DNA of 64,000 nt from NCBI GenBank assembly GCA_021851875.1, contig JAJZQI010000011.1, forward strand, positions 1-64,000, read 5' to 3'. Positions 6,230-31,925 of the stretch are shown in pieces. The notes below the pieces were generated by a model that ran no database searches, was not told the DNA's origin, and saw only the letters and a list, made by a program, of their open reading frames with translations. Both the position numbers and the translations under genes were made by a program. The stretch comes from Pseudomonadota bacterium. GTDB lineage: Bacteria > Pseudomonadota > Gammaproteobacteria > Burkholderiales > JAJZQI01. The stretch's first letter is position 1, and the number at the start of each line of letters is the position of its first letter.

Positions 6230-6247
6230 GGGTCAGGCCTTACATTT
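6230..6247 (+). repeat. Left inverted repeat of RAYT element
   Basis: Perfect complement of 7167-7184. The transposase stop codon (TGA on the minus strand, 6247-6249) overlaps its last base. Confidence 0.9.
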
Positions 6248-7107
6248 CACACGCCGCCGCCCATCCCCTCACCCTCAACCTTCTTCACCGCCCGGCTCAC
6301 CGTGGCATAACTTACACCAAAATGCGCACCAACCTGCTCAAGGGTGTAGTGACCGCTCAAGTAGGCCTTCGCCATCGCTTCAACCCGATCAGCACTGTTT
6401 TCTTCATAGTACTGCAAGGGCTTAGCCGGGCCCTGCTTTTGCAATCGGGGGATGTCTTTCAGGGACTGCTCGGGTTGCATCTTGCATTGTGTTTCTTCCA
6501 CAAAGGCATCACTACCCAAATAGATCTGATTCTTCAGTTTTTCCCAAGGAGATGGTTGATTGGCTCCTTCAGCAACAAACTCACGGTATTTCGCCTGAGC
6601 CTGCTCCCTATTCTCACCAAACGCCCCCAATACCCAGTCCGTTGTGAGGTAGACTGGCACGCCAGACAATCCTGCCGTTGCACGGTAACTGCTCCACGGC
6701 CACGCTTCCGCCGTATGCAACATCCGGGCACGCACAGGATTCAGCACGATGTAGCGCGCCAACTCCAGAAGGTACGTTTCCCGCTCTACCAGGATCGCCT
6801 TGAACCTGCCCTGAAACACATGCCCCACCCGCTTATGCCGACGGTTGAACTCCTGCGTATATGTCCCGTTCAGATATTTCATCCCTTTGGATAAATTCGC
6901 ATCGGTCGTCTCAATCAACAGATGGTAGTGGTTATCCATCAGACAATAGGCATGGCAGTACCAGTTGTAACGCGTAACACATGCGTGCAGAAGCCGCAAA
7001 AAACCAATCCGATCCTCATCATCCTGATAAATGGCCCCCTGTGCATTGCCGCGCGATGTCACGTGGTACAGCGCCCCGGCATACTCAATCCGCAATGGCC
7101 TCGCCAT
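6247..7107 (-). CDS. REP-associated tyrosine transposase (Y1_Tnp, RAYT)
   Basis: A 286-residue HUH single-strand transposase. The N-terminus MARPLRIEYAGALYHVTSRGN is family-typical. The metal-binding HUH motif is HYH in MDNHYHLLIE near residue 58-66. The catalytic tyrosine is expected in the LNGTYTQEFNRRH helix, before the conserved RVGHVFQGRFKA. The C-terminus (around 245-280) holds a helix-turn-helix, GAHFGVSYATVSRAV, in the longer RAYT subgroup. GAGGAG five bases before ATG is a strong ribosome site. The gene appears intact. These enzymes process REP hairpins and are usually single-copy domesticated genes. Confidence 0.93.
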   Translation of the reverse strand: MARPLRIEYAGALYHVTSRGNAQGAIYQDDEDRIGFLRLLHACVTRYNWYCHAYCLMDNHYHLLIETTDANLSKGMKYLNGTYTQEFNRRHKRVGHVFQGRFKAILVERETYLLELARYIVLNPVRARMLHTAEAWPWSSYRATAGLSGVPVYLTTDWVLGAFGENREQAQAKYREFVAEGANQPSPWEKLKNQIYLGSDAFVEETQCKMQPEQSLKDIPRLQKQGPAKPLQYYEENSADRVEAMAKAYLSGHYTLEQVGAHFGVSYATVSRAVKKVEGEGMGGGV

Positions 7108-23235: not shown

Positions 23236-23328
23236 AAATCCCCCTTTTACAAAGGGGGAAATGGCTACCCGTGGAACGTCTGCCACCAACATTCTTCCCC
23301 CTTTGCAAAAGGGGGACCGAGGGGGATT
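23236..23328. repeat. Paired CCCCCTTT/AAAGGGGG palindromes
   Basis: The left unit CCCCCTTTTACAAAGGGGG (23240-23258) and right unit CCCCCTTTGCAAAAGGGGG (23297-23315) each form hairpins. The ends AAATCCCCC and GGGGGATT make the whole 93 bp an inverted repeat. It lies in the 246-bp gap between recG and the pseudouridine synthase. The same design occurs at 29927-30051. Confidence 0.85.
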
Positions 23329-28531: not shown

Positions 28532-29062
28532 ATGAAAACCTCCGCTGCGTGGCAGTTTCATTGCCTGTCCGCCCCACGCTCTTTACGCCGCTGGCTGACC
28601 GACCCGGGATCCCTGACTCAGCGTTTATCCAGCCGCTGCCCGCGTTTTGCCGTCCGCGTCCTGCAACAGGGTCGGGCCGCCCCCCTGCTCGATGAAGCGC
28701 CGCTGCTGCAGCTGCGGCGGTCAACCGAACGGGTGCAACAACGCGACGTGCTGCTGCTTTGCCGCCAGCAACCCGCCGTCTTCGCCCATACCATTTTCAC
28801 GCGCGAAAGCCTGCGGCGCGCCTGGCAACCGGTCGGCCGCCTGGGCAATCGCTCGCTGGGCACCCTGCTGTTCAGCAACCCCCGTATCCGGCGCGGCAGA
28901 ATGCAGTACCGCAAGCTCGATCGGCGCCATCCGCTGTATCGTCGTATAATGCGGCAAACCGGCGGCGCGCTGCCCGCTTCGCTGTGGGCGCGCCGCTCGC
29001 TGTTTTTGCTGAACAGTCAGCCGATGCTGGTAACCGAAGTCTTTCTGCCCGACTTGCCATGA
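28532..29062 (+). CDS. ubiC: Chorismate pyruvate-lyase
   Basis: A 176-residue enzyme making 4-hydroxybenzoate and pyruvate from chorismate, the first step of ubiquinone synthesis. Family features are [12 protein letters not shown] near residue 20, the active-site arginine region [18 protein letters not shown] and [14 protein letters not shown], ending [19 protein letters not shown]. The stop overlaps the ubiA start by four bases, so the two are coupled. Confidence 0.95.
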
Positions 29063-29919
29063 CACTGAAAGAACGCCTCAACCTGTACGAACGCCTGATG
29101 CGGCTGGACAAGCCCATCGGCAGCCTGCTGCTGCTGTGGCCCACGCTGTGGGGCATCTGGTTCGCCACCAGCGGTCACCCCAACTGGCTCATCGTGTGGA
29201 TTTTCGCCCTTGGCGTGGTGCTGATGCGTTCGGCCGGCTGCGTCATCAACGACTATGCCGACAGCGATTTCGACAGGCATGTCGAGCGCACCCGAAACCG
29301 CCCCATCACCGCCGGGCATGTCGGCAAGAAGGAAGCCCTGCTGCTGGCCGGCGGCCTCAGCCTGCTGGCGTTTCTGCTGGTGCTGCAGCTGAACAGGCTC
29401 ACCATCCAGCTGTCTTTCGTCGCGCTGTTCCTGGCCGCCAGCTACCCCTTCACCAAACGCTTTTTCGCCATCCCGCAGGCGTATTTGGGTATCGCTTTCG
29501 GCTTCGGCATTCCCATGGGCTTTGCCGCCCACCTGGGCATGGTGCCGCCGATCGCCTGGTGGCTGCTGCTGGCCAACGTGTTCTGGGCGGTGGCCTACGA
29601 TACCGAATACGCCATGGTGGATCGCGAAGACGACCTGAAAATCGGCATCAAGACCTCCGCCATCACCTTCGGCCGTTTTGATGTGCTGGCCATCATGCTG
29701 TGCTACGCCGCCACCCTGGGCATCCTCGCCTGGATCGGCTGGAAGGTGCATCGCGGCCTGTGGTTTTACGGCGGGCTGGCCGTCGCCGCCGGCATCGTGC
29801 TGCACCACTACACGCTGATCCGCACCCGCGAACGGCACGCCTGCTTCAAGGCCTTCCTGCACAACAACTGGCTGGGCGGCGTGGTTTTCGCCGGGCTGGC
29901 GCTGGATTACTGGCTTTAG
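29059..29919 (+). CDS. ubiA: 4-hydroxybenzoate polyprenyltransferase
   Basis: A 286-residue integral membrane prenyltransferase, eight or nine helices. The two aspartate-rich motifs are [19 protein letters not shown] (about residues 71-89) and [19 protein letters not shown] (about 190-210). It attaches the polyprenyl chain to 4-hydroxybenzoate. ATG 29059 gives the standard N-terminus [21 protein letters not shown]. The open frame upstream is ubiC read out of frame. Confidence 0.97.
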
Positions 29920-29926
29920 TGCAGCC

Positions 29927-30051
29927 AAATCCCCCCTCGCCCCCCTTTTGCAAAGGGGGAATGCAATCGCACAACATTTAGCCGGCATCACTTGAATTAA
30001 CCATGCCAACAGTCAACTTCCCCCTTTGCAAAAGGGGGATTGAGGGAGATT
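29927..30051. repeat. Paired CCCCCTTT/AAAGGGGG palindromes, left of DUF559 gene
   Basis: A reverse unit at 29927-29961 (CCCCCTTTTGCAAAGGGGG at 29941-29959) and a forward unit at 30020-30051 (CCCCCTTTGCAAAAGGGGG then ATTGAGGGAGATT) enclose about 58 bp. The right unit provides GGGAG, placed as ribosome site for the DUF559 gene at 30054. Confidence 0.88.
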
Positions 30052-30053
30052 AA

Positions 30054-30413
30054 ATGCAGCCCTACAACCGCCAACTCAAATCCACCTCCCGCACGCTACG
30101 CGGCAACATGACCGATGCCGAGCAACATTTGTGGCACCATCTGCGCCGCAAACAACTGCACGGCGTACAGTTCTACCGGCAAAAACCCATCCGGTCCTTT
30201 ACCGTCGACTTCTATTGCCCAAGCGCACGGCTGGTGGTGGAATTGGATGGCAGCCAGCATCTTGCCGACGAACACCGGCAGGCCGATAAAAAGCGTGACC
30301 AGCAATTGATGCAACTCGGCCTCACCGTCCTGCGCTTCGACAACCGCCAAGTATTCTTACAAACCCCTGCCGTGCTGGAAGTCATCTCAGCTACAATACT
30401 GCAACGCCTTTAA
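30054..30413 (+). CDS. DUF559 endonuclease-like protein
   Basis: A 119-residue protein of the DUF559 family, which has the fold of very-short-patch-repair/restriction endonucleases. Signature segments are MTDAEQHLWHHLRRKQLHGVQF, the acidic VDFYCPSARLVVELDGSQH (about 53-71) and the closing GLTVLRFDNRQVF. It appears intact with D, E-x-D and QH residues present. It stands alone between ubiA and ubiD, which are often adjacent, and is bracketed by copies of one palindromic repeat, suggesting insertion as a unit. Its biological role is unknown. Confidence 0.9.
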   Translation: MQPYNRQLKSTSRTLRGNMTDAEQHLWHHLRRKQLHGVQFYRQKPIRSFTVDFYCPSARLVVELDGSQHLADEHRQADKKRDQQLMQLGLTVLRFDNRQVFLQTPAVLEVISATILQRL

Positions 30414-30428
30414 CTCACCACATACCCA

Positions 30429-30459
30429 CCCCCCTTTAAGAAAGGGGGCAGGGGGGATT
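30429..30459. repeat. CCCCCCTTT/AAAGGGGG palindrome, right of DUF559 gene
   Basis: CCCCCCTTTAAGAAAGGGGG (30429-30448) followed by CAGGGGGGATT, the same half-repeat as in the other copies. It ends three bases before the ubiD ATG, so the repeat appears to supply the ribosome-binding purines. Confidence 0.85.
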
Positions 30460-30461
30460 GA

Positions 30462-31925
30462 ATGAAATACACCGACCTGCGCGACTTCATCGACCAACTG
30501 GAAAAACGCGGCGAGCTCAAGCGCATCAGCACCGAAGTTGACCCGGTGCTGGAAATGACGGAAATCTGCGACCGCGTGCTCAAGGCCGGCGGCCCCGCCA
30601 TCCTGTTCGAGAACCCCAAGGGCAGCGACATGCCCGTGCTGGCCAATCTGTTCGGCACGCCCGAGCGCGTCGCCATGGGCATGGGCGAAGACAGCGTGGA
30701 AGCCCTGCGCGAAGTGGGCAAGCTGCTGGCGTTTTTGAAGGAGCCGGAGCCGCCCAAGGGCCTGAAAGACGCCTGGGATAAATTGCCGCTGTTCAAGCAG
30801 GTACTCAACATGGCGCCCAAGGAGGTATCGCGCGCGCCCTGCCAGGAAATCGTCCGGGAAGGCGATCAGGTCGACCTGGCCAAACTGCCCATCCAGACCT
30901 GCTGGCCGGGCGACGCCGCGCCGCTGATCACCTGGGGCCTGGTGGTCACCCGCGGCCCCAACAAGAAACGGCAGAATCTGGGCATCTACCGCCAGCAGGT
31001 GATCGGCAAGAACCGCGTCATCATGCGCTGGCTGGCGCACCGCGGCGGCGCGCTGGACTTTCGCGAGCATTGCGAGAAAAATCCGGGCCAGCCCTTCCCC
31101 GTGGCCGTGGTACTGGGCGCCGACCCGGCCACCATACTCGGCGCGGTGACGCCGGTGCCGGATTCGCTGTCGGAATACCAGTTCGCCGGCCTGCTGCGCG
31201 GCGCCAAAACCGAAGTCGTCAAATGTCTCGGTTCTGATTTGCAAGTACCCACCTCGGCGGAAATCGTGCTGGAAGGGGTCATTTACCCGGACGATAAGGC
31301 TCTGGAAGGCCCCTACGGCGACCACACCGGCTATTACAACGAGCAGGACTGGTTTCCCGTATTCACCATCGAACGCATCACAATGCGCAAGAACCCGATC
31401 TACCACAGCACCTACACCGGCAAACCGCCAGACGAACCCGCAGTGCTGGGCGTGGCGCTGAACGAGGTATTCGTGCCGCTGCTGCAAAAGCAGTTCCCGG
31501 AGATCGTCGACTTCTACCTGCCGCCGGAAGGTTGCAGCTATCGTTTAGCCGTGGTGAGCATGAAAAAACAGTACCCCGGCCATGCCAAGCGCGTCATGTT
31601 CGGCGTGTGGTCATTCCTGCGCCAGTTCATGTACACCAAGTTCATCATCGTGGTGGACGACGACGTCAACACACGCGACTGGAAAGAAGTCATCTGGGCC
31701 ATCACCACCCGCATGGACCCGGCACGGGATACGTTATTGGTGGAAAATACGCCGATCGACTACCTCGACTTCGCCAGCCCGGTCTCCGGCCTCGGTTCGA
31801 AAATGGGTCTGGACGCCACCAACAAGTGGCCGGGTGAAACCACCCGCGAATGGGGCACGCCGATTGTAATGGATGAAGCGGTGAAACAGCGGGTAGATGC
31901 CATGTGGGGCGAGTTGGGGCTGTAA
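30462..31925 (+). CDS. ubiD: 4-hydroxy-3-polyprenylbenzoate decarboxylase
   Basis: A 487-residue UbiD decarboxylase using prenylated FMN. Seen are [21 protein letters not shown] at the start, a metal/prFMN-binding region with [19 protein letters not shown] and AHRGGALDF, the catalytic E-x-x-R-type region [11 protein letters not shown], and [16 protein letters not shown]. It removes the carboxyl group from the UbiA product, the third ubiquinone gene here. The partner UbiX is not in the window. Confidence 0.96.

Follow-up and report, generated by a model that had tools for sequence, protein, structure and literature searches.

Why does a small nuclease gene lie between ubiA and ubiD, with copies of one palindromic repeat on both sides? 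The question arises from a stretch of 64,000 nucleotides of a Pseudomonadota bacterium (genome G000; the whole stretch is called the window here). An earlier note on this DNA had described a DUF559 gene that separates ubiA and ubiD and has repeats on either side, and both the coordinates and three exact palindromes agree with this description. The features of the window that are needed in the following are:

29062-29919, forward strand: ubiA (PF01040, by Pfam), left neighbour, stop at 29919
29927-29959, reverse strand: repeat unit U, copy 1, AAATCCCCCCTCG tail and CCCCCTTTTGCAAAGGGGG hairpin, exact palindrome 29941-29959
30018-30051, forward strand: repeat unit U, copy 2, hairpin CCCCCTTTGCAAAAGGGGG (GCA loop) and tail ATTGAGGGAGATT, exact palindrome 30020-30038
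30054-30413, forward strand: DUF559 (PF04480) gene for a predicted EDxHD/Vsr-like nuclease of 119 aa, Pfam 117.7 bits
30429-30459, forward strand: repeat unit U, copy 3, CCCCCTTTAAGAAAGGGGG and CAGGGGGGATT, abutting the ubiD start codon, exact palindrome 30430-30448
30462-31925, forward strand: ubiD (PF01977, by Pfam), right neighbour, start at 30462
23236-23328, no strand assigned: second inverted pair of repeat U, without the nuclease gene, palindromes at 23240 and 23297

The cassette between ubiA and ubiD

All three bracketing copies share the half-repeat end that the note had pointed out, a purine tail of the GGGGGATT type. Copy 1 reads AAATCCCCCCTCG-hairpin (reverse), copy 2 hairpin-ATTGAGGGAGATT (forward, one base off), and copy 3 hairpin-CAGGGGGGATT (forward), and therefore the order of the cassette is U(-), U(+), gene, U(+). 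The two upstream units (29927-30051) are an inverted pair, similar to a REPIN, and folding with DNA parameters predicts one long hairpin for them (z = -6.6). Exact CCCCCTTTnnnAAAGGGGG palindromes occur five times in the window versus not once in 100 dinucleotide shuffles, and 13 times in the genome versus zero for a reversed-pattern control. The genome contains one stand-alone DUF559 gene; the other Pfam match is weak and lies within a frame of 1977 aa.

The congener G001 shares this gene and all three repeat copies, also between ubiA and ubiD. The distance between the two neighbours is 545 nt in G000 and 573 nt in G001, versus 8-82 nt in ten relatives, which have neither gene nor repeat at this position. 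Empty ubiA-ubiD sites in relatives, which the note had named as support for mobility, have thus been found. The best explanation is that the cassette entered a tight ubiA-ubiD junction, left both genes intact, and added about 540 bp.

The encoded nuclease

The window protein exceeds the curated Pfam cut-off of PF04480 (20.6 bits) by far. Five residues that are invariant in alignment A1, E23, D52, D65, H69 and D78, are the predicted active site. Their order fits the EDxHD arrangement of Vsr in the form given for Caulobacter VsrA, and the first three spacings (29, 13 and 4) equal those of VsrA E73, D102, D115 and H119. The E-D-x-H-D residues and the alpha/beta core place the protein in the Vsr-like EDxHD superfamily. 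A Foldseek search with its AlphaFold model (pLDDT 89) ranked the DUF559 crystal structure 3hrl first, followed by I-Bth0305I (3r3p, TM 0.80) and Vsr (1vsr/1cw0), and a profile search agrees with this ranking. Judged from the model, the protein is a Vsr/I-Bth0305I-like EDxHD nuclease, for which nicking activity is predicted. For YcjD, the E. coli member of the family, a PD-(D/E)XK nuclease had been predicted already in 2005, and its profile match was Vsr (PMC1189080). I-Bth0305I and Vsr share the catalytic EDxHD residues and the fold with DUF559. However, in contrast to I-Bth0305I, DUF559 is not linked to an intron or intein, is much shorter, has no DNA-binding extension, and is accompanied by hairpin repeats instead of a unique target.

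Two other identities were rejected. The protein is not an HUH Y1 transposase (PF01797), because the Pfam scan gives only DUF559 and related nucleases, and it is not a typical phage or plasmid gene, as relatives occur in 4 of 50,697 phage and 42 of 72,556 plasmid records, none with more than 60% identity.

For the other characterised DUF559 protein, Caulobacter VsrA, an action on TG mismatches has been proposed, and it causes SOS induction when a cytosine methylase is absent (PMC12907096). This is in line with a reading in which DUF559 is a repair or defence nuclease that acts on mismatches, extruded hairpins or foreign DNA, has no role in mobility, and has the repeats as local regulatory or substrate DNA. 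The position of the gene between hsdS and hsdR in genome G150 would also fit. However, membership in a defence family was rejected, since the PADLOC matches are weak, local, and to much larger proteins (DpdF, 1078 aa; mREase_II, 294 aa). DUF559 genes have no fixed neighbourhood, ubiA-ubiD is a housekeeping context, and the new insertions of repeats described below are left unexplained. We regard this reading as very improbable.

The repeat has the design of PIT/BoxC elements

Unit U consists of the hairpin CCCCCTTT-loop-AAAGGGGG and, after it, a purine tail that ends with GGGGGATT. The tail mirrors the purine arm, as an intrastrand purine triplex requires. A tail that matches the mirrored arm to at least 75% was found for 47% of 213 hairpins, versus 4% with shuffled tails. 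The repeat also has a strand polarity. When units were oriented by the tail alone, 132 of 214 three-base loops were GNA and 5 of 214 were TNC, and counted by locus, GNA is on the purine-tail strand in 31 cases and reversed in one. Loops of the GNA type give DNA mini-hairpins of unusual stability, and only in that strand; therefore one specific single strand is probably recognised. No GTAG/CGTC tag is present at the foot of the hairpin; instead, the units read CTTCCCCCTTT...GGGGGATT. Chance and ordinary terminators were ruled out as explanations by the shuffles, the control ORFs (see below), the mirror symmetry of arm and tail, and the loop polarity. A search of Rfam for known RNA elements yielded no match at E <= 0.1.

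Pyrimidine arm, loop, purine arm and mirror purine tail, in this order, are the layout of PIT/BoxC repeats, and the units of the window have it. Repeats called PIT, BoxC or TM-ECO are said to have been described as intrastrand triplex repeats by Hoyne et al. in 2000. Like the window repeat, PIT/BoxC elements are intergenic, occur as inverted pairs, and vary between strains. PIT-type triplex motifs are present in hundreds of genomes, with inverted pairs and strong strain variation (Holder et al., 2015, PMC4666352). They have been known for more than two decades from E. coli, Haemophilus and cyanobacteria without a linked enzyme, and E. coli K-12 contains 23 copies of TM-ECO/BoxC (PMC4666352). 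Triplex formation has been demonstrated with TM-ECO oligonucleotides (PMC4666352), and by their sequence the window repeats are potential triplex-forming elements as well. The origin of the PIT/BoxC repeats has been called unclear, and no mobility gene was found nearby (Holder et al., 2015, PMC4666352). The system described here differs in this respect, as an enzyme had not been linked to PIT/BoxC before.

The repeat pairs also resemble MITEs. They are short inverted-pair elements (about 90-140 bp) with the ends AAATCCCC...GGGGATTT, they are present in one relative and absent from another, and at times they lie in frame within genes. Unlike with MITEs, the sole associated gene is that of a non-DDE nuclease, and target duplication is inconsistent.

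DUF559 genes are paired with hairpin repeats across bacteria

DUF559 loci were gathered by protein sequence alone, regardless of repeats. Eighty were obtained by a related-locus search, 21 from the genome itself and relatives of the order, and E. coli ycjD was added. A hairpin was counted when one pyrimidine arm and one purine arm were present within 300 nt of the gene, and 344 mechanically defined ORFs of the same loci served as controls. Hairpins were found upstream at 62 of 94 DUF559 loci versus 16 of 344 control ORFs, and downstream at 71 of 94 versus 18 of 344. Hairpins on either side accompany 86/94 DUF559 genes and 34/344 control ORFs (Fisher p 6e-53), and hairpins on both sides 47/94 and 0/344, respectively (Fisher p 4e-37). 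In a second set, obtained by a search of the class, hairpins are present on either side of 23 of 28 genes and on both sides of 17 of 28. DUF559 genes are therefore rarely free of repeats; genes usually without repeats are what the note had named as speaking against its proposal. Among large proteins that contain DUF559 as one of their domains, none has the hairpin (0/7). Many annotated DUF559 frames extend into the repeats, which results in protein tails such as PHPNPLPKGERE.

As in RAYT/REP systems, the DUF559 gene is flanked by its own hairpin repeats, mostly as inverted pairs. The pairing is wider than first guessed: many DUF559 clades show it, every one together with a repeat of its own, and ycjD and BoxC of E. 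coli are among them. E. coli K-12 has a full BoxC copy between ycjD, which encodes a DUF559 protein, and fabI, and a degenerate copy is present at the 3' end of ycjD. No paper that links DUF559 or YcjD to repeats was found in the open-licence literature, and the earlier note knew of no described role of DUF559 in repeat mobility.

The sapF-fabI region of E. coli (L126, L209/L210) is variable. K-12-like strains contain ycjD and the BoxC copy. In other strains, this junction is occupied by the eefRABCD efflux operon, and BoxC is absent near fabI in L209, the one that was read. The alternation of eef and ycjD has been described, without the repeat (PMC12817139).

Repeat type tracks the protein clade and not the host

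The similarity of the repeat arms varies with the identity of the proteins (Mantel r = 0.45; the maximum of 2000 permutations was 0.11). Arms that end with TTT/AAA, the type of the window, mark one DUF559 clade (32 of 35 rows), and this clade spans seven phyla, i.e., Pseudomonadota, Chlorobiota, Chloroflexota, Nitrospirota, Bacteroidota, Omnitrophota and Desulfobacterota. The TTT/AAA label requires 7 changes on the tree versus 28.6 when it is shuffled, and none of 500 shuffles was as low. The Mantel and tree figures are descriptive, because the resolution of the tree is poor (116 columns) and the loci lack independence. Both protein clades are present in Pseudomonas as well as in Gallionella, each clade with its own repeat. 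Repeat type thus follows the clade of the enzyme, another trait of RAYT/REP systems.

The co-occurrence was also analyzed by genome, in a sample of 274 genomes of the class. Membership in the window clade was defined as at least 142 bits with profile A2, a threshold that was chosen after a gap in the scores had been seen. The 12 genomes with the window clade contain 13, 6, 4, 89, 12, 19, 0, 37, 161, 0, 1 and 11 exact palindromes; the clade is present and exact palindromes are absent in G164 and G310. At least four palindromes were found in 9 of the 12 genomes with the clade versus 8 of the 262 without it (Fisher p = 2e-10), and 21 of these 262 contain any palindrome. The strong co-occurrence that the note had predicted is present in this comparison, but it is not complete, because four genomes without the clade are rich in repeats. 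G015 has 24 copies and no DUF559, G235 has 172 copies and no detected DUF559 of the window clade, and G333 and G334, which are incomplete assemblies, have 31 and 32 copies and likewise none of the window clade. Repeats persist in these genomes, and therefore their maintenance does not require the enzyme. Such a distribution would be expected if repeats outlive the enzyme, and it would look the same if something else spreads them.

Repeats arrive at new sites

Repeats have arrived at new sites, also without the gene. The adenine methyltransferase gene of G000 contains a pair of U units in frame, and this is an insertion, because the homologues of the congener, Acinetobacter and Sphingomonas lack the pair. 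About 18 nt of the target have been replaced, and no duplication was generated. Three more repeat sites of G000, including the pair at 23240, are empty in the congener G001 (the alignment at L011 is poor), and at one site half an element differs between the two. The 5.1-Mb genome G150 contains six copies, none of them more than 1.5 kb away from the DUF559 gene. They form an inverted pair on each side of the gene and another pair within the frame of hsdS (L157:4038-4153), which adds a linker of about 38 residues to this type I restriction specificity gene. The clustering may be due to import of the whole hsd island.

These sites bear on the main rival, namely that DUF559 is a homing endonuclease gene that cuts gene-free PIT repeats and enters them as a copy through recombination, whilst the repeats themselves are older and have spread otherwise. 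The nearest characterised fold outside DUF559 belongs to an EDxHD homing enzyme, I-Bth0305I, the clade-specific repeats would be its recognition sites, and gene-free repeats exist. However, ubiA-ubiD of the ten relatives contains neither gene nor repeat, and thus this site was not a pre-existing repeat. Furthermore, gene-free pairs still reach new sites, e.g., inside the methyltransferase gene, and in G150 all repeats surround the gene and none is found elsewhere in the genome. Both the empty sites without repeat and the insertion of gene-free pairs weaken homing, which we consider unlikely.

A gene cassette is repeated at unrelated sites in genome G091. Three DUF559 units that are 98% identical are present at L233:1405-1938, L237:644-1177 and L236:1423-1918. 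The unit has 534 bp in the best pair, inverted arms of about 84 bp, and DUF559 as its only gene. By eye, 9-bp direct repeats were recognised at the flanks (GTTTGTAAC, GTTTTTAAC/GTTTGTAAC and GTGCAGATT). They resemble what a conventional transposase would leave after acting on a carrier; such an enzyme may have acted in trans, and its IS is perhaps missing from the 360-contig assembly. A general target duplication was not found: in a scan of 41 long-arm loci, one convincing automatic case was obtained (L237), and the candidate at L123 lies in tandem repeats. The terminal 23-mer of the unit (up to 3 mismatches) occurs five times in the assembly, always at the ends of DUF559 units. The G091 units sit in the middle of palindromes of other repeats (GGTCAAGGTTTGTAACCTTGACC-like), as if aimed at REP-like hairpins.

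The direct repeats would be expected if the gene were passive cargo that lies between repeats moved by a RAYT, by a DDE transposase in trans, or by homologous recombination. Y1 transposases were found in 10 of 14 genomes searched, including one in the window, and tandem arrays of repeat pairs suggest recombination. Yet the search for Y1_Tnp detected none in G001, G191, G306 and G235, which contain 6, 37, 161 and 172 repeats, respectively, and none close to repeats in G000, G150 and G300. The Y1 gene of the window has other ends and is 16 kb away from the nearest repeat copy. A RAYT was therefore rejected as the mover, on account of the four repeat-bearing genomes without Y1 and the different ends of the window gene. 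In addition, the end of the G091 unit is confined to DUF559 units, and passive cargo does not predict a repeat type that goes with the DUF559 clade from phylum to phylum. Hitchhiking of this kind appears even less likely than homing.

The Y1_Tnp/RAYT-like gene of the window (6247-7107, reverse strand, 286 aa) has the ends TCAGGCCTTACATTT / AAATGTAAGGCCTGA, which are unrelated to the CCCCCTTT repeats.

A candidate enzyme for PIT/BoxC repeats

We favour the reading that DUF559 is a dedicated enzyme of PIT/BoxC repeats, which would cut the hairpin of its own repeat and would help the pairs and the cassette to move, and we give it a probability of roughly 0.6. DUF559 would recognise this hairpin, probably in the form of a single strand or a cruciform with GNA loop and purine tail, and would nick or cut it, perhaps on the lagging strand. 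Repair or strand transfer after this putative cut, on whatever product it may leave, would then move inverted pairs, and sometimes the repeat-gene-repeat cassette.

Such a system works like REP/RAYT, but it fails the defining enzyme test of that family. In both cases, a small chromosomal nuclease gene, usually with few copies, is bracketed by hairpin repeats, and the repeats are intergenic, form inverted pairs, vary in number between relatives, and have a type that tracks the enzyme clade. In contrast to RAYT, DUF559 is an EDxHD/PD-(D/E)XK enzyme and not an HUH Y1 tyrosine enzyme, and unlike REPs its repeats have a mirror purine tail, lack the GTAG/CGTC tag, and are numerous in several genomes without a Y1 gene. 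The parallel to RAYT genes and REP elements drawn in the earlier note thus holds for the pairing, the co-occurrence by clade and the empty sites; it does not extend to the enzyme class, which is unrelated to RAYT, and the movement by DUF559 is what we infer.

DUF559 is the first concrete candidate for an enzyme behind the dispersal of these widespread bacterial repeats. The clade-by-clade match with one nuclease family makes the origin of PIT/BoxC directly testable, even in E. coli K-12 with ycjD and BoxC. If the favoured reading is true, hairpin repeats would be spread in the manner of REP/RAYT by a second, unrelated enzyme class, and a large protein family that is filed as a domain of unknown function would obtain a function. 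A bolder and rather doubtful version is that the stand-alone EDxHD nuclease of about 120 residues by itself excises or copies hairpin/triplex repeats and its own cassette of 500-600 bp across phyla, which would be a new transposition chemistry. In that case, PIT/BoxC would be the non-autonomous half of an unrecognised class of mobile elements, with the three units of G091 as complete and autonomous copies.

Repeat arrays and adjoining tandem repeats

Some genomes contain repeats in dense arrangements. In G300, inverted repeat pairs follow one another in tandem about every 135 bp (G300:C1:2646828-2647520), an array that resembles a BIME or REPIN cluster, and dense repeat arrays are also present in Chlorobaculum (L046). 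In G000, repeat units adjoin short G-rich tandem repeats (GGGAGAA, GGGCTGA) at L009, L010, L011 and L013. In G001 (L175, L176), other short tandem repeats (GTGAGGA, GTCCTCA) replace the unit at two unit-bearing sites.
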